From Cliona cf. orientalis (lineage: Eukaryota; Porifera; Demospongiae; Clionaida; Clionaidae), in NCBI GenBank assembly GCA_963930775.1, contig OZ005689.1:4402001-4466000 (forward strand): DNA of 64,000 nucleotides. Reading direction: 5' to 3'. Position numbers and translations under genes: made by a program. Positions 7,373 to 63,254 of this stretch are shown piece after piece. Numbering within the stretch: the first letter of the stretch is position 1; each line of letters starts with the position of its first letter. The notes under the pieces were generated by a model. The model worked only from the letters and a program-made list of their open reading frames with translations. It had not been told where the DNA came from and did no database searches.

Positions 7373-14741
<7,369 letters not shown>

Positions 14742-19317: not shown

Positions 19318-22300
19318 ATGGTGGTCCACCGGACCTCTACAACTGTACTAGGAGTGATCCTTGTTGCTGGATTCTTGGATTTTTCATACGCTGGTAAGCC
19401 GTGGGAGTCTGCGTCGTTGCACAGTTTATGATTCACGGTTTCCATACCTGGGCCCATGCTTCCAACTTGAAGTAGCTATGGCTGCTAATAATAATCATAG
19501 AGTCGGTAGACTCTATAAGTAGGGATGGCACGGATACTCCATATATATAATACATTACAAAAATCCAAATATCTCAAAACAGGTAACTTTTTGAACTTTC
19601 TAAGCGTCAAAATCAGAATCTACAGCAAATTATCTATCTAACAAGACCAAGATCATCCATCAACTCAATTGTATATGCCAGAACCAGATGTTCAAAAAAA
19701 TAGCCATTTGTCAATCTTTCTTTCTTTCTTTCTGTTTTCCTGGGCTAACTCAAGACTATCATGACCGCTCACCTTAGTTTGAGTATAAATCCACTCCATT
19801 TTGGAGCGCGCATGTCTGTGGCACGCTCATTTTGTGTTATCAGGATAGCGATTTAATTGTGGGTGTGTACAGCGCGCGTTTTGCGAGTGGGTGTGTCCAA
19901 TTAGCCATTTTGTCATATAATGCGCATGCTCATTTGTTGTTGCCATGGTGAAGTCATGTGACCGATGTAAGTGGCGCGCGTGCGCCGGGCGCGGCCTGCT
20001 CGCCGGATCGCTCAGTAGCCTAGTCTCGTCCCCAGACCCCACCCCCAAAAGGAGGAAAGGGTCTGGTACACATCGAGCGCTTTTTGGGGCGCACAGGATG
20101 CAGCAGGTCATGTGATCGTCATGACAACGCATCGTATAGGCATGGCAACGCATCAGCGGCTCTCACGTGCAGCAATAGGCGGCTAGCGCGCGGGGTCACA
20201 CGATAATCACATGCAAGCCACATGGCGTGAATCTGATTGGTGCGACAGAATTCAGACATGCCAAGTCAGCAAGACCCAAAAAGCGCTCGATGTGTACCAG
20301 ACCCTTTCCTCCTTTTGGGGGTGGGGTCTGGGGACGAGACTAAGTAGCCTCGTACCCAGGCCCTTTGAGGAGGAGGAGGAGGAGAAAGGGCCTGGTACAC
20401 ACTGTGTGCGCATGCGTTATTTTCCCAGTAAAAGCTGGGAATTCGTATTTTTGTCCGCTTATCTGTCCGTAAACGTGAACCTTGACCTCAGGTATATGCC
20501 TAAAAATCCTTTTTGCTGGCAGCGTTTCGGGCTCAAGACGCCTACTGTGACCAATTTAGCTATCACAAGCGAGCAATATCGACAGAAGAATAATAAAGAA
20601 GCTATGAGAAGGACATCGACTCACGTTTAGTCGACTTTTTATGAAAAAAATGGAAGTATCGACACCGAGGCAGTTGTCCAACGGCAGCGAAGGGACTTTG
20701 TCAGATCTCTGAAGCTCAAGAAGGTTTGTTTAAAGTCAAATGAGAGCGAAGAAAGTCTTCCGTACGATATTCTTTAGAAATATCCAGTCTGTAGGCTTCA
20801 CCGACTTCGGATGCCATGGGATGCTTAGTATACGTTGTCCGTACACGTCCGACCGCGTGGTAACGCCAATATCCGGCGAATTATACTAGAAAATGCTCAG
20901 TAAACTTCGCGCATGCGCGTACAGTGTGTACCAGGCCCTTTCTCCTCCTCCTCAAAGGGCCTGGGTACGAGGCTAATCGCTCAGCTGATCAGCTCAGTGA
21001 ACTGTCGATCATAGTGGCTACTTACCAAGAGTAAGCGTACTGGCCTATAAAATATGCTCCTGAAACAGAATGTTTTCGTCGCTACTTGGTTCTAAACAGC
21101 CTTCTTTCAAGTTTGCCGGTCGAGTCAGCCAGCTTCAGGATCGAGATAACGAGGGGCGTGGCTTCATTCGCAGGTCAGCTAGTTACCTGAGCTGTCTCGA
21201 GAACCCCACTGATGCACGTTCAATAGTGTGTGATGCAAAAGAAGACGTCCTAGCAAGCTATCAAAAGACAGCCTGAATTTGCACTTCTAGTACAGCCTGG
21301 AGTATTCAAGTTTGAACTCATGGTGTCACGGTTGGGGCCGGTACCATAGCTGCCTGACTCAAAGGCTAAGATCACACAAACATGGTGTACTTGCTTCCCT
21401 ATAATAATATTGTATTTATTGCTGGAGCATGGTTGGATCGATGTAGCTATATAGGTCCAGAAAAAATGTTTGAAGTAGCTAGTTCCATGCATTAAATTTT
21501 AATATTAAACAATCACGGAATAGGCAAACCGGTCGCCATGTAATATGTATACATGTAGTCTCATGCCCAGCCTCTGTCCCCACGATATTATTCAGCTAGG
21601 TGGCATTGATGAAAATTAACAACTACCAGGCCCTGAGGGCACTAAAAAAAGAACAGTAACAAGTATAAAAAACAATTGAATAAAATTAAAGGATGAAGTA
21701 GGGATGGCAGTGCCAAAAAATACACAAACAAGATTCGTAGGGATAACGTATCACATCCACTATACATCCCTACGCTTGCTTTTTGAGTAGCCGTGCACAC
21801 ACATAATATTATATTTGGGGCACATGCATGCAGGAATGGAAAATCAATACTGTATACACCCAGGGATCAATATCAATAGTATAGTGACACTTTTAAATTA
21901 CATGCTGAATCAGATTTGTATGAGAAAAGCAAGCGTAGGGATGTATAGTGGATGTGATACGTTATCCCTACGAATCTTGTTTGTGTATTTTTTGGCACTG
22001 CCATCCCTACTTCATCCTTCAATTTTATTCAATTGTTTTTTATACTTGTAATTATGATGACTCTGGTGTTCATATGGAAGCTGCTTTTTGTTTTACATGC
22101 ATTTAAAACTAGGCTAGCTAGTCTTGCCCCAGTGCAGGAGTGGTTCTTCCCTTGGGTATGGGTCCGGCTCCATGAGACTAGATTTTTCAAGCCGATACAA
22201 ACTGAAAATAGGGCGGCCTGGGAATGAATAGCTACTTTCATCAGTGGCGATGGTCCTAGTATATCCATATACAGAACAGCTACTTTTATCAGTGGCGATG

Positions 22301-25300
22301 GTCCTAGTACATACATCCATATACAGATCAGGATGCTTGATGAGTGGATGAATCTTAGACTGACAGCGATGGCCAGTGGATACACTTAGCCTATAAATAT
22401 GGCACTGAGGGTTATGCATTCATACACATCTTATATTAATCTTTACAGCAACCAGTGAATTTCTCCTTCCTCCAAACACGGGGTGTGTTTGTCCTGGAAG
22501 TGTGTTGATCTACACATGTACTGCCATTGGTACTGGAAATACACTGTGGACAGGAACTGCTTTTGATTGTGCTACAAATGGGATCATTTTACGGCATGAG
22601 CGGTTTGCTCAGTCGGGACGTGCAGTCGGGGAATGCAACAATGGTGCTATAGACGGTCGGAGTGTAGGAGTTGAAAACAACTGCTACACTTCAGAAATTG
22701 CTGTCACAGTTAGTGCTACCTTTAACAACAAGACTATACAGTGTATCCATAATTCGGGCTCAGGAATAATTACAATTGGCACATCAATGATCACTTTTTT
22801 TGAAGGTTTGTCGCTATCCATTATTTGCTCAAACTCTCTATTCATGCTGCTTTTTACAGCCCCGTATCCACAACCTAACAATGTTCGTCTTATTGATGCC
22901 AATCAAGAAATGCTTACGTTTGGCTGGGAATCCTTGGGTCCTAACTGCGAGTCAGTAGTGTATGACATCTCTTCCACCTGTGGTTCATGTGGCCCCATGT
23001 CAACTAATGCCACAATGGTTGACTGTTTTGGTTTTCAGTTGTCAAGCAATGAGTCCACGTGCACTTTGAGTGTTAATTTCATGCTCTGTGGTAATACTGG
23101 GCCATCAAACACAGTTATGGTTACGTTGAAAGGTACACAGCACTAAAATGACTACTACTGATTGATTATTAATTATTATGTTGAATTTTTAGTACCAGAT
23201 ATTCCCAGAGCAATAATTACACCAGTCTATTCTTCTGACAAGACGTTGCTAAGCATTGGACTGGTACTGTACCAGGAAGTAAGTCTTGAATCAAAATGAA
23301 GTTACATACTTTTCAGTAGTTGTAATTCTCATAGGATTCTTTTGATATCGTTGATGGAATATCTGGAGCTGTTTTGAGTTACACCACATACTTTAATTCT
23401 GGTTTATCTCACACAAATTCAGCTTGTGGGACTGGTGTATGTGAATATGCAGTGAATTTACCCCTCTCCATTTGCGATTCATCAGCAATTATCAATGTAG
23501 CTGTTTCGGCAACTAACAGACTGGGAGAAGGACTTTCTTCCGACCCTTTTGTAGCCGGTATGGATACATGAATAATCTTAATTTCTGCAGAGATAATATT
23601 ATTCCGATAGTTATTTGGGGTGTGTATAGAGGACGATATGCATTGAGCTAAAGTGTTTGATAATATTACGTATGTGTATGTGTGTGAATAATAATTATGA
23701 CATTGTTTGTCTGTGTATGGGAGTGAATTTGTATAATCACCTCAATCATTCTATGGTCTTCCCCTATATATACCTCTTTCTTTTGCAAACTTAATGGTTA
23801 TTATGTACACTGTATAACATCGTTCCATTACTATTGTAGAATGTACCAATCAGTTTATTGAGGTTCAATATGACTCCACCACTTCTACCATCTCGTGTGT
23901 GTTCCTAAATGAGCTGGATACTTCTGAGAAATCGTGTAGCATTCGGTATGGTCTATGTGGTCAGGAACAGACCGAAGTGCCTGCTGATAATACTATCACC
24001 AGCAGTGTAATGTTAAACCTGGACTTGACTAGTACTGACACAAGCCGTATGTATTGCTACTCTATTACGGCAAGAAACAGAACATATACTGTAATTGTGG
24101 ATGGAAGGATTAGTAAGTCATGCATACATACATACATGTAGTTATGACCATTATAGTATTGACAATGTCTACTGGTAAAGTATTATCATACAAGGTCACA
24201 TGATTATGTGGGAAAGAATCTGATATGATAGATAGTTATGTTATAGTTAATACACCCCTACTAGTGCTGTATGGAATATAATGCACGAGTGCAGTAACCA
24301 CATACAGCACGAGGGCGAAGCCCGAGGGCTGTATGTGGTTACGCACGAGTGCATTATTCCATACAGCACTAGTAGGGGTGTGTTAACTGGTTTGTATCCC
24401 ACTGTTGACTTAGCACTACAAGTGTGGTGTCTGAGCCTGACCACTGGGCCAGGTACCTGTAGTAGTCAGCTGTACCACAGGGCAATATCATGATATTGCC
24501 CTAGCCACAGGGCAATATCCAGTATACTGCCCTGGTGGTAGCTTTGATCTAGGTCATAGGTGGGATACAAGACAAGATACCAGTATACATTATTATTGTA
24601 CTTAATGTGGCATGACAATGAATGCATGTACATTCTTGTGGTTGCTGACTTAGTTGATACTATAGGCAATGAACAAACACAACAATGAGGTTTTATTATT
24701 TTGGAGAGTAATACTGAGCCACATGACATGTCATTGATCTACAGCTACGTGATTATTAATAGTAGCTTCATAATAAAGATATGTGCTTATGCCTTGGTAA
24801 AGGGATATTGCAAATTTGCGATTAGAGTTTACAACACTTGTACATATTCATGCTCTGATAATCATTGTACAAGCTCAATAATATTTTTACCATAGATATC
24901 GTCGGTGGTAGTTCTTCAATCATAGCAATTGTTGTTCCAGTGATAGTAATCGTCATCACAGTCAGCCTGGTGATTGGCGGGATTGCCGTCCTGACAATCC
25001 TTATTGCTCGAACAAGACAAAAGAGATGCAAGCTGAATGGTTAGCATTTACCATGCATGCATGCTATGTCATGTTGTAACCGTCACTGTAATTATGATCT
25101 TAGATTCAGAGTCTGGTGCTGAATTGCTTGACATCAGAAATAGATTCACCGATGATCATTTGTCTGGTCTGAAACTGAAAGCAATTGATGAAAATGAGTG
25201 GATTATTTTGAAGTATGAAGTGGAAAGTGATTGTTCACTCAAGCAGCTCATTGAAAAGCAAGAACAGATCTTCAAGAGAGGCCGTGCACTCTATGAGTTC

Positions 25301-27787
25301 ACAAATGAAGCCGAAAGTGTTACAGAAGACCTGCAGCTGATATTTTGGGAAATTGTATATTTATTATTATTATATTATGTACACTATTAACATAACTTAT
25401 TACAGGAATCAGGCAAATTCTTCAATCTAGAAGCAGACCCTAAGGAATTACATGAGAAAGGCTTGTTTGGTGAAATGGTATTACGACCATCACTGAGCAA
25501 ATACAAGGTATTTGTTCAAAGTACAGGTTTAGGAGCAAGACATCTACCAGGTGGCAGTACCCTTCTTTACATGGTATGTTATTGTATGACATATCCTAGG
25601 ACTAAACTTATATTAATTATTATAGAAACAAAGACCACATCCACTGTGGAATGTTGATCCAACACAATTTAAGGAGCTACAGATAGAGAAAGACTGTACA
25701 CTACGAACATTCTGTGAGGAGCATCGACTTGATCCAAACAAACATAGCATGTATATTGAATGTGATGATTTTCAAGTGAAGCAAAAGATAGGTGACGTCA
25801 TAGTGATGGATAAGGTAAATTATACAATGAATGCATAATTATTATTATACTAAGCACTGAAGTAATTGTCAGATATACAATCTTTCACTGTATATAGGAT
25901 ACCGAGAAATATTTAACAGGTCCTTATGCATTTCATATGGTGAAGGAAAGTGCTGAAGACAGCATAATTATAAAGCAGAAATGGAGAGTGTTTTTGTGGC
26001 GTGCCTTTGACGAAAAGCAGTGGCTTAAGAGAGAAAAAACAGTTCTCTGCATGGTATATCATTATAATAATGACGTGAGCATTTTAGAACATTGTCACTT
26101 ATATAATTACAGGAACAAGATCAGGAGCACCGTAGTCGAAAGCAACAGCAACAAACATTATCAAGCACTATGAAACCTCCACTCATACGTATTAATTCTG
26201 ACAGTTCACAATTTGTAATGAAAAAGTTGGAGAGAGACTATAATGACTATAACGAGTTTCGAAAGTTACCCTCAGTCAGTGTTGACCTGAATGAGAGGAA
26301 TGTGTTTGTGGAAGCAGGTTGGACTAAGATGGATGGACTATGCACAGTTGATATGATCCTGTTTGACAAGGTTAGGGTGCTAGCTCCATGGCATTGTTTA
26401 AAAGTTACTATAGCATTATCCAGCTCCTTGTGAATGATTATCTCGCTTTTTCAGGACACTGGAGAATTCTATACAGGTCCTTCTGCATTTGAGGAAACTA
26501 AGAATTATAGAAGTAGCAGGAACAGTAAAGATAAAGATGTAGAGGAGAAAAAATTTAAGGCATTACTTCTAAGTGATGTCGATGGCAAAGAACTTTTGAA
26601 AAATGCATCAGTTTTGCACCGAGTAAGCAAGTGGCGTATTTGACTACTCTAACAGCATAGTGTCATCATAGATTCTACTGATGTCATAGAATGGTTAATG
26701 TTGAGCCAATTTATAGGACTGCATTCAGTAGATTTAGATAATTTGATGTGTTCTACTCCATTATAGGTGCATAAGAAGCAGTGGCAGGCTGAGGCTTTGG
26801 TGCCTATTTCGTCAAAATGGTTAAAGGAGATGACTATTGAAAAAAAGTGTGAAGTTGGTGAATTCTATCATAAGGAAAAGTTAATCAGAAAAGAGCACAA
26901 GTATATATTTGTGGAACGTACATATTTTCCGCAAGATGAGCACATAGATGATGTGATTCTGATGGAGAAGGTCATTTAAAATATTTGTTAAAGATAAAAT
27001 ACACTTAATTCATAATAATTTATTATGACATTGTTATACAGGATTCCAAAAAGCTTTTTACTTATCCTTGTTCACGGCGCATGGTTCGTAAATGGCTGAC
27101 TGGTAAAGATGGTAAAATCCGAGATGAAATTCAGGAAAAATGGAGAGTATTTGCTGTATGTAAGCCTAAGAAAGAATTTGTATTTGGAGAAGATACCCCT
27201 GTTTTAGTTCAGGTACGTTAGTAATAACTATTAGTAAATATTGCAAGCTCAATGACATGCCTGCATGCATGCATCTTGACCCTTATGCTAAATGTGATCA
27301 CACAGGATCCTAAATATTATACTGAGAAGTTTCATGTTCTGAAGGTTGACAAGAATAATATCAGAATGTCCGAGTTCATTAGGATAAAAATTGGTTCATT
27401 TGAGAATGGAAAAGCCTTTTATGAATTTAAGGAACCTGAAGATCTTTCTTATTACAAGGAAGTTGTTTATGTACCAATGACTTTAATTGATCGATTAACA
27501 ATGGAGCAGGTAATGCATATTATTATTATTGAATGTGGCGATTAGTACATTACAATGTGGTATAACATTGTGTTTGTTGTCCACAGAAATCTGAGACTCC
27601 AGCAAACACCAAATTTCTGCAGTGTAGTAGCTTTGCTAGTGTTGATTATTATTATAAAATTCCCGGAGCACCTGGCCATGAAGTCAGGCCACCACCATCA
27701 TCAATGAACAAAGTGTTTGTTCAAAGTACATCACAAGGGTCTAGGTGTCTAACAACTGGAATGGTGATACTTTATAAAATACAATGA
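19318..27787 (+). CDS. Receptor A: Ig-FN3 type I membrane receptor with long modular cytoplasmic region
   Basis: Seventeen exons: 19318-19393, 22449-22805, 22860-23132, 23193-23278, 23335-23557, 23840-24112, 24896-25039, 25104-25354, 25406-25573, 25626-25814, 25898-26053, 26113-26370, 26455-26622, 26767-26970, 27042-27212, 27306-27509, 27587-27787. Frame is kept throughout; 1133 residues. Exon 1 is a signal peptide (MVVHRTSTTVLGVILVAG). Exon 2 is a Cys-rich Ig-like domain (CVCPG, LIYTC, TLWTGTAFDC, ECNNG, KTIQC). Exon 3 is FN3-like (LTFGWESLGPNCES). Exons 4-5 form a second FN3-like domain and exon 6 a further beta-type domain. Exon 7 is the transmembrane segment. Exons 8-17 each encode one cytoplasmic module with phase-0 borders, in the order X-Y-A-B-A-B-A-B-X-Y. 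X has a G-A-YEF core, Y has VFVQST-x-G-x-R, A has CTL--F and ends ID-V-L-D, B has a TG-A and W-VF core. I know no family with this cytoplasmic layout. Intron 1 (3 kb) is filled with transposons. Confidence 0.82.
19497..19990. repeat. Dispersed repeat Y, copy 1
   Basis: From GAGTCGGTAGACTCTATAAG to the GTCATGTGACC region, this matches 35480-35940 in reverse orientation, including the segment around CAGAACCAGATGTTCAAAAA. One copy lies in intron 1 of receptor A, the other in intron 1 of receptor D. Type unknown. Confidence 0.65.
20021..20341. mobile_element. MITE with TA ends in intron 1 of receptor A
   Basis: Near-perfect terminal inverted repeats of about 68 bp starting TAGTCTCGTCCCCAGACCCC and running inward past CGAGCGCTTTTTGGG. 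TA at both ends suggests a Tc1/mariner-type target duplication. No coding capacity. Confidence 0.85.
20345..20975. mobile_element. Second TA-ended MITE, next to the first
   Basis: Inverted termini TAGCCTCGTACCCAGGCCCT and its complement, extending through the GAGGAGGAGGAG tract and TGTACCAGGCCCTTTC, with a TGCGCATGCG-type motif near both inner ends. About 630 bp, non-autonomous. Confidence 0.85.
21070..21660. repeat. Dispersed repeat X, copy 1
   Basis: This segment reappears in reverse complement in the sixth intron of receptor D, in two pieces (about 48225-48440 and 48890-49080) separated by an insertion. The part next to the MITE at 21661 also matches 47340-47430 in reverse. It includes an open frame of 68 codons that is broken in the other copy. 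Type unknown. Confidence 0.65.
21661..22047. mobile_element. MITE family Z, copy 1
   Basis: Inverted arms of about 140 bp: AAGTATAAAAAACAATTGAA, then GGATGAAGTAGGGATGGCAG and GTAGGGATAACG inside, closing with the complement. Related copies occur at 34660-34995, 47215-47325 (one arm) and 55534-55905. Confidence 0.85.
24246..24570. mobile_element. Two adjacent hairpin MITEs in an intron of receptor A
   Basis: 24246-24386 is an almost perfect palindrome opening GTTAATACACCCCTACTAGT, with a GAGGGCGAAGCCCGAGG centre. 24392-24570 has ends TTGTATCCCAC and GTGGGATACAA and an inner GGGCAATATCATGATATTGCCC-type palindrome. Both lie in the intron before the transmembrane exon. Confidence 0.8.
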
Positions 27788-28190
27788 AAAGTAAGTACAT
27801 GTGTATTGTTAATTAATTTTAACTATTGCGTGCCTGTATCACATAAAATGTCATAGTTTTTGAACCTACAAAAATTAATCAGCACTGAAGTAACAGCTAG
27901 CTACTTTTTGTGATGCATGACATTATAGCATTATTATAATATTATGCGTGATTGTTGTATAATAGCTAGTGGCTGAATAGAATTATTATTGATAATGATG
28001 ATAATATCCAACTATGTATAGATGTTAATTTTACTATAAAGTGGTTCAGAATGAGGATCATGACAAGCCTCTTCAGGTGCACTGCTATACTTAAATTCTG
28101 AATAAAATTGGAAATCATGGTTATATGATATTAGCAGGAAGTAGCTATCTCTCCTTCACTCCCTCTTCTAGATCTCTCTCTCACTCTCTC
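27788..28190. other. Convergent gap between receptors A and B
   Basis: The 3' ends of A (plus) and B (minus) face each other. AT-rich, with AATAAA at about 28100-28105 on the plus strand that could serve A; no gene. Confidence 0.4.
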
Positions 28191-48827: not shown

Positions 48828-48868
<41 letters not shown>

Positions 48869-51800: not shown

Positions 51801-54800
51801 CACTGGCTAGATGAAGTTTTAGAACTAGGTGGTATTCCCTTCAAGAAGCTACTTCAGTACTGACACAAAGGAAAGAAATAGTCCGGAAATGCAGTTTACC
51901 AATGGCAGCTACTGTGCCACGAAATTCATATCGTGGGGTGCTCTACTCTACTTCACGTTCGGAGTATGATGGCACATGGAGGTCTGTTCTTTGTCATACC
52001 TGTCAGTAGTCCGGTAGCAATATTCAAGCAGAGCGAGAATGTCGCCATTGCACACTTAGTTGGAGCTGCTTGCTATGGGGGGTGTGGCCTTTGCAACCGC
52101 TTCCATCTGCGCATGCGCACGGTACTAATGGGCAATCTTGCCCAGGCAGGATACTGTTTGTGTATGAACTACGTCTCTATGTTTTGTGAGCATGTACTGT
52201 TAATAGATGATCATCACATGCATACTAGCCACATTTTCCCATGATTGTGACATTAAACATACTTGTTGCTATGAGTAGGATATACGTATAACATGTCACC
52301 ACCCTCGGGATTGGGTGCATGGTTAATCCTGGGTGACCATGGTATAACTCTAAATTTATTATCATAAAGTGACAATTCATCGTTTTGGCCTTAGCACTCT
52401 ACACACACTTAACTGAAGGGGCTTAGGTATGGTTAGTGCGGCAGTAGTCACTAAAAGTATCATAGATACTGGTTATAAAAGTGCATGTGATTATAATCAA
52501 AACTTGACTAAAATACAAAGCATGGACTTAATTAAAACATGGTAGGTGGACACCTAACATGCCTATAGGCGACCTTGATGGATACTTAGCACAATGCATT
52601 AATGTGTTAATTAAGAATTTGAGCCCATATCTATGGTATGCAGGCTTGAGAACAGAAATTGTTCCATAAGGGTTATGATAACATTTAGTATGATGAAGAA
52701 ATAGGCATGCATAGATTAATATTTTCAACATTAGTTACCATTTGCTATATTTATCACCAACCTATAATTTCAACAACTGTGCTTATTAATTAATTTTTAG
52801 TATTCCTCATTATCGGATACACATGCAGTGTTTCAACATTAAGTGGAGGCATGTACTTAATGCAAAGATTAAATAAAATTAATGTGGTTTCAGCATTATG
52901 ATTCTGATAATTAAGGTGTTTTTCCAAATGAATAATAGCAAGTATAGTGTTATTAATTACAGATGAATGAAAATACATTCTATACGTGCCGTGCTATTTG
53001 GAGTATTATCAAAGTTTACATCAAGGAGAAACACAGATGGAGAGTGTACATACTGAGGGAAATGGGACCAACGTTTATGCTACCGATTGATATTTGGGTT
53101 TTATATCGGGTGAGTTAATATTTATAAACCAAAAAACGAGAAAGAAGCCCGGATCAGCATGCTAGTATGCTTTTTGGAGTGCTCTACAGATGGCTCGATC
53201 GATGGACAAGACTGCCAGCCAACTTTTGATGCCTCACGCTCTTGAATCTCATACAGTGCCAGTGAGTTGACTGCCATGATCCAATGATGATCGTTCTCAG
53301 AGATTCAAGAGCGCCAGGCATCAAAAAGTTGGCTGCCGGGCAGTCTTGTCCATCGATAGAGCCATCTGTAGAGCACTCCAAAAAGCCTACTAGCATGCTG
53401 ATACGGGCTTCTTTCTCATTTTTCCTTTTTTTGGACTCTCATACTTGGACACACTGGACACTGAACGCGTCATCAGTGTCCACACGTGATCAAAGCCTCC
53501 CTGGCTCTCCCCCTTCCTTCTCACAGAAAATCATTTCGCGTAAATATAATCGCGTGTATAAAATAAAGAGGAAGGGGAGAGCCTGGGAATGAGGCTACTC
53601 TGATGCCTTCTCGATTGATCAGATGCCCGAGGAATTTGACTCGGTCTCTTCCGAATTCACATTTGCCTGAATTCAAGAGTTACCTCATATAGCTGCAGCA
53701 GCTTCTTACCTCTTCATCACGGCTTGTAGGCGGGCATCATACTCCATTTGGTTGGTTCCGTACACCAACACATCGTCCATCTGGCAAAGGACTCCTCCTG
53801 GCCCTTCCAGGATAACGTTGATATGATGTTGGAACAAGTTGGGTGCACTAGATATCCCGAAGGGAAGTTTGTTAAAATAGTACCTGCCGAAGGGCGTGAT
53901 AAAAGTCGTGAGGGGCCATGATTCTTTGTCTAGGGGGATTTTCCAAAGTCTGCTGTTTGCATCAAGTTTTGAGAAGATCTTTGCCCCAAGGCTTGAGCTA
54001 TCATCTTATCCACCTTTAGGATGGGGTACAGTATGCTTTCGTTGAGCGGCTTTAAGTCGACACAATTGCGAACGGCTCCAGAGCACTTCGGTACGACTAC
54101 CATTGGTGTGCACCAGGGAGTAGGTTCTTGGGTAGGGGAAATTACTCTCATAGCTTCCATTCGGGTAAGCTCTCCGTTCACCTTCTCACGGAGGAGGATG
54201 GGTACATTTAAGGGTGAAAAAGGCGTAAGAAACGGCTCCTTCTTTCAACTTATTTGGTACTCATCTCCCATGTTGCCCAGACCTGAAAACACTTTGGGAA
54301 ATTCCAGTCGCATGTTTCCTCCTATATCAACACTGTTCACTCGGTAGAAGAGGTGGATGGAGATAATTGCTGAAGTCCTAGTAAGTTATTCCGTAGTCCA
54401 CATATGACAAATACGGCTTGTTGCAAGGTGTTGCTCTGGTGTTCCAGGGTAGCTGTGAACTGATCGAAGACATTGAGTATCTATCTTGCCGGACCGAACA
54501 AGACATTGGATGGCTGTTTCAGTTTAGGTTGGCCCAGCCTCTTGTACATCTCTGAGATAGCAGTAACCTCTTCTCCTGTATTTAATTTAATGGAGGTTTC
54601 CACCATACTGAGGAGTAATTTGGTCATCCACAGAGATCCTGGGTTCGCTCTCACAGTTCCCAGGAATGCTGTGTCCAAGTTGAGCTCATTGGTATTAACA
54701 GTGGCTACTGTCTTAGAGAAGCATTGGCTGCTGTATAGTCCCTCGTAATTACAGATGGCATCTTTAGCTAGACACCTGACTCCCTTATCATATTTCTGTT

Positions 54801-57800
54801 TGCCACATCTCATACATGTTTGCTTTGTTGCAGGTGCTGTGGTACTACTGGTGCCTCCTTTAGCTGATAATGATCGATCTCCCAGTGTGAGTTCTCCTCG
54901 TTTGAGGTTTCTTTGGTAGGGTGATACCTTTGACCTGATCAACAACTATGGATGTTTGTTTACTACCATCGCTTTTGCAGCTGCTGCTATGCTCAGATAC
55001 TGTGACAGCTTCTCGTTTGGCGCACCTTCTTCTTGGCCTTTTTGAGGGTCAAATCATGCAGGTACTCAGACAGAACAGCATCCCTGATGTCCACAATGAT
55101 GCGGTCTTGTAGCATCCAAGCTTTTTTTAAGTGCTCCATACTTGCAGAAGTCTACAAGACGATAGAGAGCAGTGATATACTGTTCCATTGAATCTTCTTT
55201 GAGCTGGTGACATTCTTCTTCACTTGGAAGAAGGTATCGAATTTCTCGAGAACCATTGCATACTTTTTCTTGCCTTCTGCTATGATACTGGTGGAGGCGA
55301 GGACATCGTCAGCTTCCTCGCTGAGGCAGTACAGCAGTGTATTAACTTGCCTCGGCTCGTCCTCTTTGGCAAGTCCCGAAGCAACCCAAAATTGCTCAAA
55401 CTGCTTCTTCCATTTAGGCCAATTTTCTGACGGCTTGAAGTCAAATGGTTCGGGCGTTCTTATAGTTGTAAGTTCGCTAGAGCCATACCCGCCACCTGCC
55501 ACCATGTGGTGGTTCTTAATATTGACTTCTTAAGAATTTAAAATTAAAGGATGAAGTAGGGATGGTAGGACGAAAAATTACATAAAAAAGATTTGTAGGG
55601 ATAATCACATCAACTATATATCCCTACACTTGCTTTTCTCAATTATCATGCGTGCATGCACCTAATTTGTTGTTGACGTCAACAATGTAATACTCTTGGG
55701 TCAAATTATTTTGACATTCTATTTTTACTAGTGATGAATGTCGGGTTACCGGTTAGTTTAATATCTGTATAATTAAAGCTACTCAAAAAGCAAGCGTAGG
55801 GATGTATTTGATGTGATTATCCCTACAAATCTTATTTGTGTAATTTTTGGTCCTACCATCCCTACTTCATCCTTTAAGTTTCAATTCTTTTTATACTTGT
55901 TACTGTTACCTTTTTATTGCACTCTGGGCAACTAATGATTCGTAATAATGTTTTGCAATTATACCACCTTGCATGGTTTGTCCATTAGACTATCAACTTC
56001 ATTGTCAATGGTTAAAACTACCATGATCAGATTCAGTCTCGGTGTATTTCCATTGTCACCGGCCATGCATCTTGTACCAGTCTATGATGTGTTACTTTAT
56101 GTATGTGAGTGCATGTGTATGCTGTGTCTCATAATTATTATAGCTAGTATGTTCAGGAGAACCGGGCAACTTTTAAAGCTCGAGTCAGTTCCTGCATCAG
56201 CATCAAAAGGTTGGCCTAGTACCGGCATACATTTTGATTTCAGGTTATGGGACTATCAGAAGACCCCGGAGTGCATGGCAACACTGGTAGTACTGACCAA
56301 GAACAATCTGGTACCATGAAGGCTAATATTAAATTTTGTACATTCAACTTCCACAATCATAATAATACAAAGGTCCTGTAATTAATTTCATTTCACAGAG
56401 GTCCGAATAACAACAATAATACAAAATTTAAGAGGGTTGAACACACGTCAAAAATTCTGAAATATGTTGAAATGAGGATCCCTGCAGATAGTGGCAGCAG
56501 CAGGAGAGCTGTTTTACACAACCTACCTCAGGACAACTCTTGAAACGACTGCGTATAGCTCATAATATAGCTAGTTGTTTCAACCAGTGCTTGGCTCAAA
56601 ACCCTTCGCTCAAAACCCTTGGCTCAAAACCCTTCGCACCGACGTTGCTGACACGTACCGTCGACTCGAGTTGACCGCCTGTTCTGTCAGCCATGTTGGA
56701 ATTCGCCCATACAAAATCCCCATAGTGTAAATTAACTTCCGGGTGCGTGATTCACTTCCGCGCGAATAAGAAATTTTATAGTAATAATATTCTGTGCCAT
56801 AATTATTTTCTTCACCTAAGACCTTCTTTGAACTTGTCTATGTGGTGCAGTTCATCCTAGTAACCAGCACTTTGTTCTATTCTATGTAGGCAAAAGCAAG
56901 TCAATTTAGTGACACCAGCTTGATGCCAATTGTCTCAGAACGATTTCATATAGTAACCCCCTCTAAAAGTTGTACATTGGATGAATTTAGAAACAAACAA
57001 CCTCAAAAGTGCAATATTTTCCTTGAGTTTGGTTACCTGCAGAACGATAAGAACATGATTGATGTTGTCTTGATGGAAGAGGTAAATTAAACCAAAGATA
57101 AAGAGTGATTATAATTCAATGTGAAGTTCATATTGTGATATGTCCAAACCTATTGCTTACTGTTTGTATAGGCTACAGAGAAGTTGTATTCTGGTCTTTA
57201 TGCACGTGATTTATTAAAAAAACACTTTAGTGGTGCCAAAGTGCTAGATGATGTCAAATGGAAGGTATTTGTCTTCTGCAAATTTAAATCAAGTTTGCGG
57301 CTTACCAGTACGACTCAAGTATTATGCCAGGTAATTATTACTGCTGTTACATGTAAATTATATTGTAATCCTTACAGAAATTATTACATATACATAGTTA
57401 TATACCTTTAGTTAAGCCAAGCTCTCATATATAGCCCTCTTGCTGTCACCTGACCCTCTACGATAGCAAGTGCACAACTCATCTAGACTAAGTGTGTTTG
57501 TTTTCTAAAGGGTGACTGTCATTGAATTAGCAGTTGCTTGATGATCTTTTTTTTTCCCTCTCCCAACAGAATGCACAAAGGACACATGAGGCTAATACAA
57601 TGCATGTACCCTATTTTGCACTAACGTTTGGATTTAGATCTGGTTTTGAATGCTATTAGGGTCCATCTGAAGGAATTTAGAGCACTTATGCTTGATAAAA
57701 TTTAAAGTACTGTTCATTCCCAGGCCCTCTTCCCATAAAACTGAGCATATTATGTTAAGTTTTTTTATAATACTAGGATTGTGGCCTGCTGGCTCAAGAA

Positions 57801-59179
57801 TTCCGTGTACTCAAAGTGGATGAAGAGAATGTGCGGATGTCAGAGTTTGTTAAGCAAGAAGTTGGTGACTACAAAAAGGGTGAAGCATTCTATGAATTTA
57901 CACAAGAAGAAGATCTTGCCTTTTATAGAGAGATTTTGCATGTACCCAATGATTTACTTGAACATGAAGATGAAAATCAGATTGTAAGTATAATCCTAAA
58001 GCTATAATTATACCGTAAAGTCTGGTTAATAAGCGTATGCGCTTATCACTCTCGGTGGTAAGGAAACATGTGCCTATTAGACAATATGTGCGTAATAGAG
58101 AGTGAAGTTTTGGCCCCGCCTAGCTACTGCCAACATGTTCGAGTGCTCAGTCATAAAGTTAGCCTAGCAAGTTATGAACAAGTGATTCTTGGACTAAGCT
58201 CTGTAATAGTTCATGGGAGTATGATCAGAAGCCATCGCTGGAAGAAAACCGTGGAAAAATAGCCGACTTGTTTGGCGAGACTCGCTTCAGTCAAGGTCAA
58301 GAGTCCAAATCCGTCTCAGTGGAACATCACAGTGTTCAGTATAGCTAGCCGATCTCGTGCAGCTGGCTTACCGAAAATAGGTTGGTCGAGGTTTCGATAA
58401 AATATTGTGCACAATAAAGCGTACAAAACTGTGCAAAATTTAATAGTGCACATCATGGGCTAATCACCTTATAATCTGGTGTACATAGCTCTGTAATACT
58501 GCTTGTAGTGTATGCATTCTTAAGCTAGCTAGACCGTGAAAATCCTTAAGGCAAAATTTTTGGGGTGTGAGGTGAATGAATAATCCATAGGGAGCCCTTT
58601 TTGTGAGACTGTGTGTTAAATCCTATGCTGAAAATTTGACAAACGATGCCGATAATTGTTAAATCAATTATACAAATATCTATATAACTCAGGTCAGTGG
58701 TGAAGCAATGATTTCTCAAACACCACAGACTCAGCAAGAAGCAGTGGACAAGAAGGTACTGATAATAACTTTTAGACTCAGAAGAGGTATAAGAGAATGA
58801 ATTCTAAGTTGTCAAATGTGTCCAAAAAAGTGGACTGACTAGGCATGGTTATACGAACATGTAGCTAATACATTTATAGTATGTGTATCTTCATTAGATT
58901 TTTGATCAATTATATTCTAGTTACTCAAGTTGAAATCTGATACAACATTCTTTTATGACATTTCTGGAAAACGTGGTCGGAGACTCGGAATCAAACCTCC
59001 AAATATACCTGGAAAGAGAGTTTTCATTCAGTGTACATCACAAGGATCGAGATGCCTCAACAAAGGAATGCTAATTCTCTATAAGGTATATATAACAAAA
59101 GTAACGGTATCATTTACGTAGTAATTGGAATATACTTTGTGCTTCATATTAGGTGGAATGTGGAAATCAGAGTGAGTAA
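34235..59179 (+). CDS. Receptor D: paralogue of receptor A with the same modular cytoplasmic region
   Basis: Nineteen exons: 34235-34334, 43055-43411, 43859-44131, 44472-44560, 44652-44889, 46426-46701, 49495-49632, 49690-49985, 50051-50218, 50270-50467, 50528-50704, 51258-51482, 52963-53109, 56890-57081, 57172-57330, 57777-57983, 58693-58755, 58921-59085, 59153-59179; 1164 residues, frame kept. Exons 2 and 3 have the same lengths as in A (357 and 273 nt). Domains: signal peptide, Ig-like (CACAG, LTYGC, TLWEGNVFDC), FN3-like, second FN3-like, a further beta domain (SVRSCQIRYGGC), transmembrane helix (VVTITIVAIILFIMVVAII), then X-Y-(A-B)x3-X-linker-Y and a short tail. Y modules read RVFVQSTGSGRRYIP and RVFIQCTSQGSR. 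Exon 1 is 8.7 kb away and is assigned by signal-peptide content and matching phase 1, so it is the least certain part. Introns 1, 6, 12 and 13 contain most of the mobile DNA. Confidence 0.78.
34660..34995. mobile_element. MITE family Z, copy 2
   Basis: Inverted arms containing ATACATGCCTACGCTTGCTTTT and GTAAGCGTAGGGATGTATAG, ending in CAATTTTATTCAATTGTTTTT. Intron 1 of receptor D. Confidence 0.8.
35480..35940. repeat. Dispersed repeat Y, copy 2 (inverted relative to copy 1)
   Basis: Reverse-complement match to 19497-19990, including TTTTTTGAACATCTGGTTCTG and GGGTCTACCGACTCGATGAT. It shows sequence sharing between first introns of receptors A and D. Confidence 0.65.
36133..36277. mobile_element. 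Hairpin MITE with GGCGAAGCCTGAGG centre
   Basis: A palindrome of about 145 bp with ends AAGTTAGACAC and GTGTCTAACTT and a centre like that of the hairpin at 24246-24386, so probably the same class. Confidence 0.8.
36386..36953. mobile_element. Pogo/Tigger-type MITE
   Basis: Ends TACAGTCGAGCCTCCGA and TCGGAGGCTCGACTGTA: the inverted termini start CAGTCGAGCCTCCG and are flanked by TA, as in pogo/Tigger derivatives. Several internal TTGTCCGCTTCTCGGAGG-like subrepeats. No transposase. Confidence 0.8.
38006..39098. mobile_element. 1.1-kb foldback element in intron 1 of receptor D
   Basis: Inverted ends TACGGTGGCCGAGAAGGG and the complement CCCTTCTCGGCCACCGTA. The arms match over at least 130 bp, and blocks further in (TAGCATACCGCGTCAT and ATGACGCGGTGTGCTA) also pair. 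A smaller hairpin with GGCCTGGGAACGAGGCT sits at about 38385-38445. No coding capacity. Confidence 0.85.
39281..39782. mobile_element. Dispersed element W, copy 1
   Basis: Left end TACCACGACTGTAAAGTCTA and right end GCTTATTAACCAGAGTTTATGGTA are imperfect inverted copies. The right half matches 58011-58370 in reverse, including the GCGCATGCGCTTA motif and the CCATGGTTTTCTTCCAGC segment. Non-coding. Confidence 0.7.
40181..42258. mobile_element. 2.1-kb foldback element carrying a LINE fragment and a small palindrome
   Basis: Arms of about 300-390 bp (40181-40490 and 41865-42258) are inverted copies, starting GGTTGGAACTGTAGTGAAC and including TGCAGCTGTGCACTCTTGGC. Inner ends carry ACTGGACTGG-type subrepeats before CCTTTGACCC. 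The right arm is interrupted at about 41936-42023 by a small palindrome (CATTATAATTTTACC...). A LINE piece lies in the loop. A further ACTGGACTGGA minisatellite follows at about 42495-42555. Confidence 0.75.
40955..41410 (-). pseudogene. LINE (non-LTR retrotransposon) ORF2 C-terminal fragment
   Basis: Minus-strand frames read SSNLEYSSAVWNPHLKGEIE, ALEKVQKFALRVC and, after a frame change near 41190, CHLYKII, RYVNAQSLNLFPF and SAISNWNKLPKEILE. These are the typical end of LINE reverse transcriptase ORFs (LEYasxVWnPhl...WNxLP). It is truncated at the 5' side and frameshifted, so dead. Confidence 0.85.
44890..46425. repeat. Long intron of receptor D with repeated TTTTACGT hairpin motifs
   Basis: The intron between coding exons 5 and 6. 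Between about 45640 and 46015 the motif GGGAAGATTTTACGT or its complement ACGTAAAATCTTCCC occurs about seven times in both orientations, so the region can fold extensively. Flanking parts (45170-45235 and 46255-46375) match the dispersed repeat at 30598-30840. Confidence 0.6.
47215..47430. mobile_element. MITE Z arm plus part of repeat X (inverted)
   Basis: 47215-47325 matches one arm of the Z MITE (GTGATACGTTATCC, GGCACTGCCATCCCTACTTC). 47335-47430 continues as the reverse complement of 21560-21660 (GTGCCCTCAGGGCCTGGTAG). The other Z arm is missing here. Confidence 0.7.
47434..48166. mobile_element. Large near-perfect inverted repeat (foldback)
   Basis: Arms of about 325 bp (47434-47765 and 47845-48166) are nearly perfect inverted copies: outer end GCCAGGAGCGCATAATTGAA, inner end around CCAGAAACGATG. 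The loop is about 80 bp. It is inserted into repeat X material. Long open frames on both strands are mirror images and not genes. Confidence 0.85.
48225..49080. repeat. Repeat X copy 2 split by a G-rich insertion with a 40-nt G run
   Basis: 48225-48440 and 48890-49080 are reverse-complement matches to about 21240-21470 and 21080-21265. Between them (about 48440-48905) sits an insertion with GTGGAGGGG-type motifs and a run of 40 G at 48828-48867, followed by 12 C at 48875-48886. This lies in the intron before the transmembrane exon of receptor D. Confidence 0.7.
50797..51186. mobile_element. MITE with ATAGAATCCCGCAATTATG ends
   Basis: Ends ATAGAATCCCGCAATTATGC and ATAATTACGGGATTCTAT are inverted copies of about 25 bp. 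About 390 bp, in the intron between coding exons 11 and 12 of receptor D. Confidence 0.75.
51483..52962. other. Long intron of receptor D (between exons 12 and 13)
   Basis: 1.5 kb of AT-rich intron. One local GCGCATGCGCAC motif near 52108-52120. No exon, repeat pair or RNA gene recognised. Confidence 0.4.
53131..53600. mobile_element. Two hairpin MITEs upstream of the Gypsy remnant
   Basis: 53131-53426 has inverted arms of about 120 bp (GAAAGAAGCCCGGATCAGCA and GCTGATACGGGCTTCTTTC), including TGGAGTGCTCTACAGATGGC. 53487-53597 is a second hairpin (CCTCCCTGGCTCTCCCCCTT and AAGGGGAGAGCCTGGGAATG). Both are in intron 13 of receptor D. Confidence 0.8.
53640..55510 (-). pseudogene. Degenerate Ty3/Gypsy retrotransposon, gag to reverse transcriptase
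   Basis: Broken minus-strand frames in gag-pol order. 55505-55152 is gag-like (FDFKPSENWPKWKKQFEQFW, CLSEEADDVL). 54945-54481 has a Cys-rich knuckle (CMRCGKQKYDKGVRC) and a protease-like site KLNTGEEVTAIS, where the catalytic DTG is NTG. 54181-53640 is reverse transcriptase: PWCTPMVVVPK, VRNCVDLKPLNE, then after a frame change FITPFGRYYFNKLPFGISSA and CQMDDVLVYG. Several frameshifts and no integrase or LTR seen. It sits in the same transcription-opposed intron of receptor D, between a B-module exon and the third A-module exon. Confidence 0.9.
55534..55905. mobile_element. MITE family Z, copy 4
   Basis: Inverted arms with GGATGAAGTAGGGATGGTAG and CTACCATCCCTACTTCATCC-type ends and GTAGGGATAATCACATC inside. 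It abuts the gag end of the Gypsy remnant. Confidence 0.8.
55906..56889. other. Rest of intron 13 of receptor D
   Basis: AT-rich. A short TCAAAACCCTTCGC tandem repeat at about 56596-56638 is the only structure I see. Confidence 0.4.
58011..58370. mobile_element. Dispersed element W, copy 2
   Basis: Starts TACCGTAAAGTCTGGTTAAT and matches 39440-39782 in reverse complement through the GTTCAGTATAGCTAGCC region. In the intron between the second X exon and the linker exon of receptor D. Confidence 0.7.
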
Positions 59180-61615
59180 CTGTACTGTTACAGTAAATTA
59201 CTCAACTGTAATGATAATTTTGATAATGAAGCATTTGTGAGCTATAATAAATAACTTGTATATCTTAATTCTTGTATATGCATTGGAATTGTATTATTTA
59301 AGAGAAAAAATGTTTGTACGCAATGTGTGTAATGTGTGTGTGCTCTGCTTTCCCAATCAACACTAGTAGTTTATACTTTTGGATATATTATAGCTGTGAC
59401 CTGATTTAAAATATATACCATCTGAATCAGGGATTCTAAAAAATTAATGGAATTTTCAGGAGAAAGATAATTCTGATGATAATTCAAAATCATCACATGG
59501 TCACCCCTTAGCAGCAGTGCATGGGACAACAAGCTTAATTGAAATCCAGGAAGGCTTAGACTTAAGCCCCGTTTACACGTACTAATCCGGATTAGTTAAC
59601 ATGCATTCACATGTGAAATAATAAACCAGGTTGAGGATGTGGTGCACATGTAAACACAATTATAGATTGTGACTTGAGTAAAACCAGTCACCTGAGGTGC
59701 TCAATATTAAATGTGGAAAAGCAACAAAGATCGATGCTTGGAAGACCAAGAGGAGGGCTCGATGGTTCATTTAACAGACAAGAACAGGTTGGTAGGTACT
59801 AAGTATTCGTTGGTACTGTTGTTTGTGTGGGGTTTGAGCATGCACACAGGGGTTATGATTGTCTAGTAACGACTTGGAAATGTACAAGAATCACTATAGA
59901 GTCTTTTGCTGTTGCTGTGGTAGTTTGGAACATTCTGCTGAAAAGAAGACATAGGGCCGCTAAGAGATTGGAACTGGCGAATGAAAGAGGAGAGCTAGGA
60001 GAAGGTACAGCGAGCATTTTTGAGAAAGCAGGCTATGGAGCGTATGATGTTTCTTATGTTCGTGAGTTGTTACAATCTGACACCAGAAAGGACAATTTGG
60101 ATAAAAGAGAGATTCTAAAGTAGCCATTAGTCACTAAGTCTTAGTACTTGGCATATCAAATTCTACTGTTTATTTGGTGTCCAAGGATGTGAGTTCTGCC
60201 ATCATAAAGAATCTAGATCTGCTGCCTCACTACATAAGATTTTCTGCTGGAACAGCTTTAAGGGAGATTATTGATGTTTTAAGCGTGATCTGGGTATTCC
60301 TCAGTGTGCAGGAGCAGTTGAGAAAGGATAATATGCATATTTTGTATGGGATAGAGGTTTGTTGTATAAATTTCATACCTGCTTCCAATGGATATGTTGA
60401 ATTATATACCACTTGATAAGTATAATAAGCCATAATTAAATTCAGTATCAAGTAATAAAGAATGTTAGCTTCAAGTTAATATCATTGATACTTCCAATTT
60501 AATTTCAGTTTCATATGTGGAAGGGAAGAATCCTCAATTCAAATAGCTAATGAACTTCAAGCTAGCATATTATGATCAATAATGCTAGCTAATTGCTATA
60601 CACATCATGAATAATATACTGAGCTTGACATTAATTTTGTGAAATGCTACTAGCTATTTCATAGTCCTGAGAGCAGTTATTGAGTGTTTATAGTGCCTTG
60701 GATTAGTCACATACTCAAGTTACCCCAGTTTACACAAATTTTATGAGTCTCAGATTAGACACATTATTTCATGACCTGACCATGCTATCATGATCTACAT
60801 GTATCCTGAAACGTTGCTTAGGTGGCGTTTTATACATGTCAACCCATGCAACAGTGCATGCATCCCTATATATAATAAATAAATAGAGCTACGTAAAGCT
60901 ACTGAAATATCATAGCTATATAATAGAGAAACAAGAAGATACTTCATGGGTCCACTTGACAGAACCCTGCATCAGTTTGAGGCATTTTTCATTCAGTGAA
61001 GGCAAGCAAGCGTTATAGACAGTTATTGAGCAGCTCCAAGAGTGGTAACTTACTTGTACAACAAAAAGCAGCGGGATTACAATTTTATATGAAAACACTA
61101 TAGCTATAGTTCAAGTGTGGTCTATATAGCTACACAGTACTTAAATTGATTCTAGACTCAAATCCAGCTCATATCCTGCTTTCCTGTTGACTCTTTCTCC
61201 AGTCACCTCTGCAAATGCTAGCTTGCTAGCTATATCATGTGTAGACTAATTTTAAAATCGTATTACGTAAATTATCTCCGCTTCTATAATTTAAAGGGAT
61301 AACCTCCAAAAGGCCTGCTCCCAACGTGTCCGTTATTCGAAACTTCTACTGTACTAGCTATATCCTGCGCATGCAGTACATGCTGCAAGTTTTTGACACA
61401 AGATTTTTTCCCAAACAGGTCTAGCTAGCTAAATGTTTTTTATTCAGTTTCGATGAGTGTACATAAACTCGAGATAAATTGGGAAACTTATCAATAACAA
61501 TAACATTTTAATCATCATAGGTAGAGCTGAGTATAGTGTATAGAACAATAATATTACCATTCTTAACATTAATTTATACTCTAGCTAATTGGTACAATTA
61601 TTAATCAATTTACTA
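59180..61615. other. Convergent gap between receptors D and E, with receptor-gene relics
   Basis: Mostly AT-rich 3' flank. The ORF-like stretch at 59827-60123 has no ATG start or recognised domain. 60290-60420 matches a module-B exon and its donor intron (separate entry). No active gene is seen. Confidence 0.4.
60290..60420 (+). pseudogene. Decayed copy of a receptor D module-B exon and its following intron
   Basis: The stretch reads EQLRKDNMHILYGIE, then GTTTGTTG and CATACCTGCTTCCAATGG. The exon 11 end of receptor D (50640-50770) reads QMRKDMYILYEIQFE, then GTTTGTTA and CATAACCTGCTTCCAATC. Both exon and intron are similar, so this is a genomic duplication relic and not a retrocopy. The upstream part of the module is no longer recognisable, though 60184-60290 is open. 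Confidence 0.65.
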
Positions 61616-61897
61616 TTAATTTTCGTAATGAAGATTGCATCTGAATAAACCTTGAGTGCACATGTATGGTATATCTACGACAAGGCTCAGCATAAGTGGC
61701 TTGTACTCTTCAGGTGTGGTACACGTAACTGTGATATCAAATTTTCTAGCTTGCAGAGCCTCCATGACTTTTTGGGACTGCTTGAAATGTCCTGCCAGGA
61801 TTAAAGGAGGTGTCCCGATTTCAGGCCTGGGGTAGCTGGGGCCATAGTATCTGTTATGGGAGATATCGATGTCCTTGTTTCTGCGGGGTGTCCTTAA
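61616..61897 (-). other. Coding-like open stretch without assignment
   Basis: A 93-codon minus-strand stretch between stops with coding-like composition (GPSYPRPEIGTPPLILAGHF, QSQKVMEALQARKFDITVTC). It has no good start codon. It lies just downstream of receptor E on the same strand. It could be an exon relic or the last exon of a transcript I cannot trace; I do not recognise it. Confidence 0.3.
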
Positions 61898-62055
61898 TCA
61901 TAGACGAGGTTCCACTATTATACTCTATAGTACCAAAAAATTTATTATTATCGGATTCTATACAAAGAGAATCAATGCTTACATGTAGTTATTGCTGCTA
62001 TTAAAATGTGTATGTGTACAAATGGGTTCTTGTTATAATACAAAATGTTAGCAAA

Positions 62056-63254
62056 TCAACAGGTATGTACTTGACCATAGGCAATGTTTTTTCCTGTATC
62101 AATAATTACACCAGACGAAGATGCCTGATGCTCTACCACCTCATAGTTACTCTCAGCCGGTAATTGTTGTTTAGTAGGTAGAAATCTTTTATTTTTTTTC
62201 AATTTTACTAGCATAACTAGGAAAATGAAGGTAAAGATTGAACCACATGTTAAGAACATTATAGCAAATAAACTAGTTGATACAATGACTCCTGTGCATT
62301 TACATTCGGAATCCTGTTTTGGACTTCCCAAATATAGTGTTATTGAATTACTTTCATTCCCTGCAATGAATCCACAGACCACTGTCTGAACAGCGAATGT
62401 ACATGTGCTACCATTTATTTGTACATTAGTGCAAGTGACTGAGGTGTGGTTGGTGGTAGTGGGGCAGCTGCCACAGTTTGATGCTAGGATGTTGTAATGG
62501 ATAGCTCGATCAGGACATTCGCTGATTGCCTTGCTCCAGTTGAAGGTGACTCGCCTTGATGTAAAGTCAGCCTTACTGATAAACAGTGTATTAGGTGGTG
62601 GTAGTGGATCTATGATACAATAATGTATGTCATTGATTTACACAGTACGTGGTGGGCAATCAGTACTAGTATGCTATGACAATCAAGTCTCACCTTCAGT
62701 GGCTACTATCAATGTACCAATTACACTTTCTATAGATGTATTATCGTAAACACATTCAACAGTCTTTCCAATCATATTAGTAGTGACAGTGATGTATAAC
62801 TGTGATGTATAGCAGTTACCTTCTACTCGAACACTGTGTGCATGTATGGAGCCACTGTTACATTCTCCAGCAGCTACGGTACTAGATTTAGATCCAAATA
62901 AACTGTGAATCAAAGCTATCTCATTGTTAGCGCTACTACAATCAAAAGCACTCCCTCTCCAAACTGTAGCATCACCAGGTCGACCAGATCTTCCTTTCAC
63001 TGTACACTCAGCAAAGGTCATATCGTAGCCAGGACAAATGCAGCTCATCTTCAGTGCTAGGCTACTATTTGATGCACTACCTATACATTATAATATTATT
63101 ACACACAACACTCATAGCATGTTCAATTTTAGTACTAACCTGGCAAAATCACAGCAAACAAAGCAAAAAGTACATGGCATGCCCACCTGAATGTATAAAC
63201 CATTTCTGACCACGATCTTAGATACTGACTCAGTGAGTAAGCTTGCATGCTCAT
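62056..63254 (-). CDS. Receptor E: short Ig-FN3 receptor with two ITIM-like tyrosine motifs
   Basis: Three exons in transcript order: 63254-63140, 63080-62694, 62609-62056; 351 residues, frame kept. Exon 1 is a leader with a hydrophobic stretch (HVLFALFAVILPG). Exon 2 is the Cys-rich Ig-like domain (CICPG, ATVWRGSAFDC, ECNSGS, KTVEC). Exon 3 carries the FN3-like domain (RRVTFNWSKAISECPD, CGSCPTTTNHTSVTC), the transmembrane segment (VIVSTSLFAIMFLTCGSIFT...IFLVMLV), a basic KLKKNKR stop-transfer and a tail with SNYEVV and IAYGQV. Both tyrosines fit the ITIM consensus S/I/V/L-x-Y-x-x-I/V/L. DTGKNIAY matches NTGENIAY in receptor C, so C and E are closest relatives and share the three-exon layout. 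Inhibitory function is inference. Confidence 0.8.

Follow-up and report, generated by a model that had tools for sequence, protein, structure and literature searches.

Do the clustered receptor-like genes of a sponge form an immune complex of the kind known from vertebrates, or are they part of something larger? The 64,000-nucleotide stretch of the Cliona cf. orientalis genome analysed here (the window; C1:4402001-4466000 of the 216.8-Mb assembly, where C1 is the contig carrying the window and C2, C4, and so on are other contigs) raises this question through five neighbouring genes, A to E, in mixed orientation (A and D on the plus strand; B, C, and E on the minus strand). A sequence-only reading had placed the genes here and described a phase-1 leader, a Cys-rich Ig-like exon, and an FN3-like exon as common to all five, with these related ectodomains joined to differing tails within one cluster. 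Our analysis bears out the placement, the shared exons (the Ig-like one with a Cys-Trp-Cys pattern, the FN3-like one rich in Cys), and the joining of related ectodomains to differing tails, for which we describe one likely case of exchange. The same reading had set the tails against each other as opposed in signalling, resembling an immunoreceptor tyrosine-based activation motif (ITAM) in B and inhibition motif (ITIM) in E. A split into activating and inhibitory tails is not supported: none of 48 tails from a related gene array fits an ITAM, and the tyrosine pair of gene B is not a strict one.

Each window gene is built from a leader, an Ig-like exon, an FN3-like exon, a transmembrane (TM) segment, and a tail. 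Three tail classes recur: a two-tyrosine tail (the array, C, and E), a Death-like tail (B and up to 16 other genes), and a tail of long repeats (A and D). We conclude that the five genes are probably diverged members at the border of a large superfamily of receptors encoded in the germline, whose tails fall into these three classes and whose Ig-like exon would serve recognition.

A genome-wide family and a dense array

When a consensus of the Ig-like exon was compared with the genome, at least 150 matches were scored (the best 150 of 391 candidates), and the FN3-like consensus likewise gave at least 150 (the best 150 of 345 candidates). Sixty-seven of the best 150 Ig-like matches fall in C1:2.74-3.02 Mb and 83 elsewhere, and together they are spread over 12 contigs including C1. 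A 200-kb segment (C1:2740001-2940000) holds 70 Ig-like and 65 FN3-like matches, all on the minus strand, or 64 loci of each kind after fragments are merged. The median distance between successive near-full Ig-like matches is 2275 bp. The array grew through tandem and block duplication: repeated blocks reach 8.9 kb, and the 25 longest matches are 83-97% identical.

As array genes we took the 54 that pair a near-full Ig-like match with an FN3-like match (54 of 57 near-full Ig-like matches; 58 FN3-like matches are near-full). A leader-like exon lies within 700 bp upstream in 29 of the 54, vs 5 of 54 in the antisense control. The array also holds split matches and fragments, and 6 of the 54 paired genes are without a TM segment.

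The extracellular domains

Alignment of the five window ectodomains leaves 25 invariant columns in the Ig-like exon and 16 in the FN3-like exon; A and B are distant, with 35% (Ig-like) and 31% (FN3-like) identity. Across 22 aligned Ig-like members, C23 and C98 are invariant and W33 is present in at least 90%, which corresponds to the Ig pattern of Cys (B strand), Trp (C strand), and Cys (F strand), the strand assignment being our own. The most variable stretches of this exon are both ends and the loop between 'HxRF' and 'CNNG'.

Compared with PDB, a profile of the 22 Ig-like members gave a best E-value of 0.33 and seven listed chains, all of which we take to be Ig-superfamily proteins. A profile of five members reached 0.093, with 7 of 10 listed chains from the Ig superfamily. 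The FN3-like profile matched titin at E 0.0064 with five members; with 17 members the best match was a p53 chain (E 0.97), followed by an FN3 protein at 1.2. The labels Ig and FN3, taken over from the sequence-only reading, stand for cysteine and Trp patterns and weak matches, and significant Pfam matches do not accompany them. Separate from the sites of the receptor family, a cluster of canonical I-set Ig domains occurs at C15:7.87-8.06 Mb.

Tyrosine tails

A TM segment is present in 48 of the 54 array genes. Among these 48, the tail carries N..Y in 45 and both N..Y and Y[EQ][DEN] in 43; an ITIM-consensus site occurs in 19, an ITAM in none, and a charged residue within the TM core in none. 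Genome-wide, the DNA pattern for DN[VIM]AYGH is matched exactly at 66 sites: 61 belong to the dense C1 array, 4 to a second C1 array (15.2 Mb), and the last is on C7. Its backwards control has none.

Scored against a profile of array tails, the E tail reaches 21.7 bits, vs 9.7 for the top scorer among 400 shuffled C and E tails, and the B tail 1.6 bits. Because E scores 21.7 and C 10.1 bits, the E tail, and perhaps the C tail, is a drifted form of one two-tyrosine tail. The idea that C and E represent differing signalling types was rejected, since both match the array tail, E clearly and C marginally.

The ITIM pattern [IVLS]xYxx[ILV] has two sites in E, a number reached by 0.2% of shuffles, and none in C or B. 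The strict ITAM pattern Yxx[IL]x(6-12)Yxx[IL] is absent from B, C, and E, and one relaxed instance occurs in B. We rejected B as an ITAM receptor: its pair reads YxxV...YxxI, and the second tyrosine is absent from the corresponding exon of B', a gene at C1:4532652. No TIR match was found among the tail pieces scanned.

Death-like tails

The Death-like exon of gene B matches no Pfam family, and PDB searches with it returned no Death-fold chains. The label comes from its relatives: the Death exon of B' matches Pfam Death (E 0.00092; 19.7 bits, below the cut-off of 22.6), and some genome relatives of the B exon, for example at C4:805110 and C2:12541194, overlap Pfam Death matches above the cut-off.

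At least 150 matches to the B Death exon were scored in the genome. Their association with ectodomains was assessed with 84 of the best 150 Ig-like matches (the 83 outside C1:2.74-3.02 Mb and 1 of the 67 inside), 64 of the best 150 FN3-like matches (both sets chosen by hand in like manner), the best 150 Death-like matches, and all 63 matches to T3, the third extracellular module of A and D. Of the 150 Death-like matches, 17 (B included) are preceded at up to 3 kb by an Ig-like or FN3-like match on their own strand, vs 1-3 in six shifted controls; 6 of the 150 have such a match downstream or antisense. For T3, 24 of 63 matches have an Ig-like or FN3-like match upstream on the same strand, vs 1-3 in shifted controls, and 6 have one downstream or antisense. 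Dozens of relatives of the B Death exon also occur at C2:11.0-14.0 Mb, none with an Ig-like or FN3-like match within 3 kb upstream in the sets used; these possibly constitute another Death-domain family.

A likely exchange of tails outside the window

B' and E share 71% identity in the Ig-like exon and 76% in the FN3-like exon. Its TM segment is on a separate exon, followed by an exon ending in TIKIFDNE that resembles, by eye, the TIKIFDNK of B. A Death exon 53% identical to that of B lies 10 kb downstream of the B' ectodomain on the same strand, and we infer that the two are linked. Since an ectodomain near to E adjoins B-like tail exons, a tail exchange is likely.

The gene beside B' (C1:4.534 Mb) has a tail 70% identical to that of E. 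It is probably a relic, because the frame changes from piece to piece and the next 1 kb shows no recognisable Ig-like exon.

We built trees from 18 of the 54 array genes, the five window genes, and five others. In the combined Ig-like and FN3-like tree, B, C, E, B', and one C8 gene group apart from the 18 array genes (bootstrap 78); E and B' are sisters (100), and B is nearer to both than C is (89). Corresponding supports in the Ig-only tree are 79, 98, and 85, and one array gene is placed there beside A and D. The order long tail (+), Death tail (-), tyrosine tail (-) is found at A-B-C and again at D'-B'-relic, where D' is a 95% copy of D; D and E keep its first and last members.

Long repeat tails and convergent gene pairs

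The cytoplasmic parts of A and D consist of five repeats of about 125 amino acids, each encoded by two exons. Searched against Pfam, the gene A repeats gave no match at E-values up to 10. We took a likeness to Rab4-type GTPases (four of five PDB chains, best E 0.034) to be chance. As far as Pfam and PDB go, the repeat appears to be an undescribed domain. A query with a D exon had made the long tail look private to D and D'; this was ruled out with an A repeat exon, which reaches E 1e-3 or better at 21 places in the genome. All 21 are on C1, whereas ten weaker matches fall partly on other contigs.

For the analysis of gene pairs we used these 21 of the 31 repeat matches and counted loci with T3 only as long-tail genes by assumption, which gave 65 long/T3 loci in all. 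T3 lies upstream of the repeat matches within 4 kb in 12 of 21 cases and within 14 kb in 18. Where the nearest Death-like exon is within 5 kb of a long/T3 locus (n = 15, two further cases that resemble the same gene being left out), the two are convergent in 10 cases, on the same strand in 4, and divergent in 1. Ten of 15 compares with an expectation of one in four (p 0.0008). On C1 all seven nearest long/Death pairs are convergent. A and B, 0.9 kb apart by exon matches, are such a pair.

Gene structures and other features of the window

Gene A (19318..27787, +) has 17 exons and 1133 open codons, and every internal junction is AG/GT and in phase. Its leader (19318-19393), Ig-like exon (22449-22805), and FN3-like exon (22860-23132) are followed by a second module split over two exons (23193-23278 and 23335-23557), T3 (23840-24112), the TM segment (24896-25039), and the five two-exon cytoplasmic repeats (25104-27787). 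Gene D (42896..59179, +; stop codon assigned by eye) is a paralog of A, colinear with it at 35% identity over 1188 amino acids. Its leader is ambiguous: one candidate (42896-42938) is followed by a 116-bp intron, and an alternative (34235-34334) by an intron of 8.7 kb. The Ig-like exon (43055-43411), FN3-like exon (43859-44131), second module (44472-44560 and 44652-44889), T3 (46426-46701), TM segment (49495-49632), and five two-exon repeats (49690-59179) come in the same order as in A. The two extra extracellular modules of A and D go beyond what the sequence-only reading had described, as does the membership of the genes in a genome-wide family. Remains of a retroelement with a reverse transcriptase fragment (53706..55529, -) sit inside the gene D intron 53110-56889, and a decayed repeat exon seen by eye (59803..60416, +) is a possible relic of another long-tail receptor.

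Gene B (28191..30275, -) encodes 436 amino acids in eight exons: the leader (30224-30275), the Ig-like (29736-30128) and FN3-like (29384-29656) exons, the TM exon (29219-29322), three tyrosine exons (29071-29147, 28939-29008, and 28546-28590), and the Death-like exon, which is the last (28191-28487). The donor of exon 4 is weak; by eye, a stronger-looking donor five bases further on would break the frame. Genes C (30999..32224, -; 371 amino acids) and E (62056..63254, -; 351 amino acids) each have three exons. In C these are the leader (32122-32224), the Ig-like exon (31682-32071), and a single exon for the FN3-like part, TM segment, and tyrosine tail (30999-31621). The E leader (63140-63254) and Ig-like exon (62694-63080) are likewise followed by one exon with the FN3-like part, TM segment, and tail (62056-62609), which contains SNYEVV and IAYGQV.

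Several features seen by eye or by domain search surround these genes. Copies resembling miniature inverted-repeat transposable elements (MITEs) are visible in introns and between genes (21.7-22.0, 34.7-35.0, 47.2-47.3, and 55.5-55.9 kb, by eye), and the Death exon at C1:4521.2 kb has a similar MITE-like end next to it (by eye). Upstream of A, an open frame of 483 amino acids (16027-17478, +) encodes a RING-H2 finger (Pfam E 6e-14) and, judged by eye, a hydrophobic stretch. A short open reading frame (11749-12210, -) encodes a T5orf172/MUG113 domain (Pfam E 4e-10), and its start resembles, by eye, a signal peptide. At 807-5837 (-) there are apparently two tandem copies of a multi-exon gene, whose open reading frames (807-1511 and 4076-4885) look alike by eye over long stretches; neither has a Pfam match at 0.01. 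A comparison of two neighbouring genes with NCBIfam gave no family. Elsewhere in the assembly, the DNA pattern for CGASYAF, a silicatein signature, has three clustered exact matches on C12, with one CGACYAF on C19 and none in the backwards control, which points to a siliceous demosponge as host.

Discussion

Several observations weigh against the superfamily that we favour. None of the 22 Ig-like members matches the Ig families in Pfam, and 1 of 17 FN3-like members matches Pfam fn3, at E 0.088. The C tail is marginal at 10.1 bits (best shuffle 9.7) and narrowly above its own 200 shuffles. In the tree of FN3-like exons alone, support for the group of B, C, E, and B' is 53 and the C8 gene falls among array genes, and BLAST finds no match between the TM exons of B' and B. 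The ratio of non-synonymous to synonymous rates (dN/dS), taken from 24 disjoint array pairs (48 of the 54 genes; tail class in 45 of 54), is 0.56 for the Ig-like exon, 0.34 for the FN3-like exon, and 0.52 for the TM segment and tail. In windows of 12 Ig-like codons it is at most 0.98, none being significantly above 1. Of the seven Death exons in convergent C1 pairs, four have an Ig-like or FN3-like match within 3 kb. The tally within 12 kb is weaker than that within 5 kb (15 convergent, 7 divergent, and 7 same strand; convergent vs divergent p 0.07), and a single ancestral pair may have been copied to give the C1 pairs, whose counts are therefore not independent.

Strong positive selection across the Ig-like exon is not supported by either the pair or the window ratios. 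The Ig-like exon evolves faster than its FN3-like neighbour, and this is no proof of diversifying selection. Convergent pairs are found on C10 and C18 as well, from which we argue that the layout is at least old.

A classical paired-receptor complex, in which related ectodomains see the same ligands while E and C inhibit through ITIM-like tails and B activates through an ITAM-like and Death tail, is improbable to us. It would account for the two ITIM-consensus sites of E, rare among shuffles and both kept in the E-like tail at C1:4.534 Mb although the frames of that gene are broken, and for the sharing of ectodomains but not tails by E and B'. Neither C nor B has an ITIM site, however, the B pair is not strict and lacks its second tyrosine in B', the ectodomains of A and B are distant, and the array, with ITIM-consensus sites in 19 of 48 tails, offers no ITAM and no charged TM core. 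We give similarly little credence to ordinary adhesion molecules that expanded with no recognition role and were retained by drift. Ig-like domains followed by FN3-like domains are a common layout of adhesion molecules, dN/dS lies below 1, and the array contains fragments and genes that lack a TM segment or tail. Set against this are the short ectodomain of one Ig-like and one FN3-like exon, the conserved tyrosine tail, the Death-like tails, and the recurrent convergent pairs.

Receptors for self-recognition, a sponge counterpart of the Alr proteins of Hydractinia, would be a special case of the superfamily; we rate this case as unlikely, if a little less so than the two rivals above. In its favour, the family is large and linked, has grown by block duplication, and consists of single-pass Ig-like/FN3-like receptors whose tails carry tyrosines. 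No Ig-like window has dN/dS significantly above 1, and the words 'immunoglobulin' and 'receptor' do not occur in the main text of an Amphimedon graft transcriptome study (PMC5450542).

Published descriptions allow comparison with known systems. Hydractinia has 41 Alr genes (PMC11999971), the Podocoryna allorecognition complex has 22 (PMC13119343), and candidates from Hydractinia reportedly carry ITAM and ITIM domains (PMC12065747). Like these, the sponge genes are linked, duplicated receptors with Ig-like domains; unlike them, they have one Ig-like exon followed by an FN3-like exon, as well as Death-like and long repeat tails. Botryllus fester and FcoR are likewise two receptor kinds encoded side by side as partners, but they have Ig and sushi domains with ITIM or hemITAM tails (PMC12065747), whereas the convergent pairs of the sponge have tails of the Death-like and repeat classes. 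As described for the vertebrate LILR/KIR, Siglec-11/16, and CEACAM receptors, similar ectodomains are found on different tails; the ectodomains of E and B', 71-76% identical, lie beside different tail exons. The sponge sets scanned differ in having no strict ITAM or charged TM core, and in the distance between the A and B ectodomains. Sponge Ig-TIR receptors also join Ig domains at the surface to an intracellular signalling domain; six such genes are given for Dysidea avara, (PMC12909245, PMC6208332), vs at least 150 Ig-like exon matches here and no TIR match among the tail pieces scanned.

If the superfamily is what it seems, the Ig-like exon would bind ligands on microbes or other sponge cells. 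The tyrosine tail (YE[DE]x ... N[VI]AYG) would be phosphorylated and dock SH2 and PTB proteins, the Death-like tail would recruit Death-domain adaptors, and the long repeat tail would serve as a scaffold. Long-tail and Death-tail genes recur in a tail-to-tail layout, with A and B as the example in the window, and this suggests that the partners are expressed and act jointly. A bolder proposal, which we hold as speculative, is a demosponge leukocyte-receptor-like complex on one chromosome. Its unit would be a convergent pair of long-tail scaffold and Death receptor, their ectodomains differing but related, that form one recognition complex beside a huge tyrosine-tail array; its Ig-like domain would be one missed by Pfam, and ectodomains would be exchanged among tail classes.

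The sponge surveys consulted screen largely by Pfam domains (SRCR, NACHT/LRR, TIR with Ig, GPCR; PMC12909245, PMC8242945, PMC6208332). Such counts could miss the present family, which has at least 150 Ig-like exon matches, since none of its scanned Ig-like members matches Pfam Ig. No description of it was found in the literature searched, a collection with few subscription journals and without the original Alr and aggregation-factor reports. Judged by sequence, its parts are consistent with surface receptors encoded in the germline, in which the outer exon varies and the signalling parts can be interchanged. The receptors are candidates for sensing microbes or other individuals, and their role would presumably be in immunity or self-recognition. 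They bear on how sponges distinguish self from non-self and different microbes from one another, their tail motifs and gene pairs being directly testable features, and on the question of whether receptor clusters with interchangeable tails have evolved repeatedly among animals.

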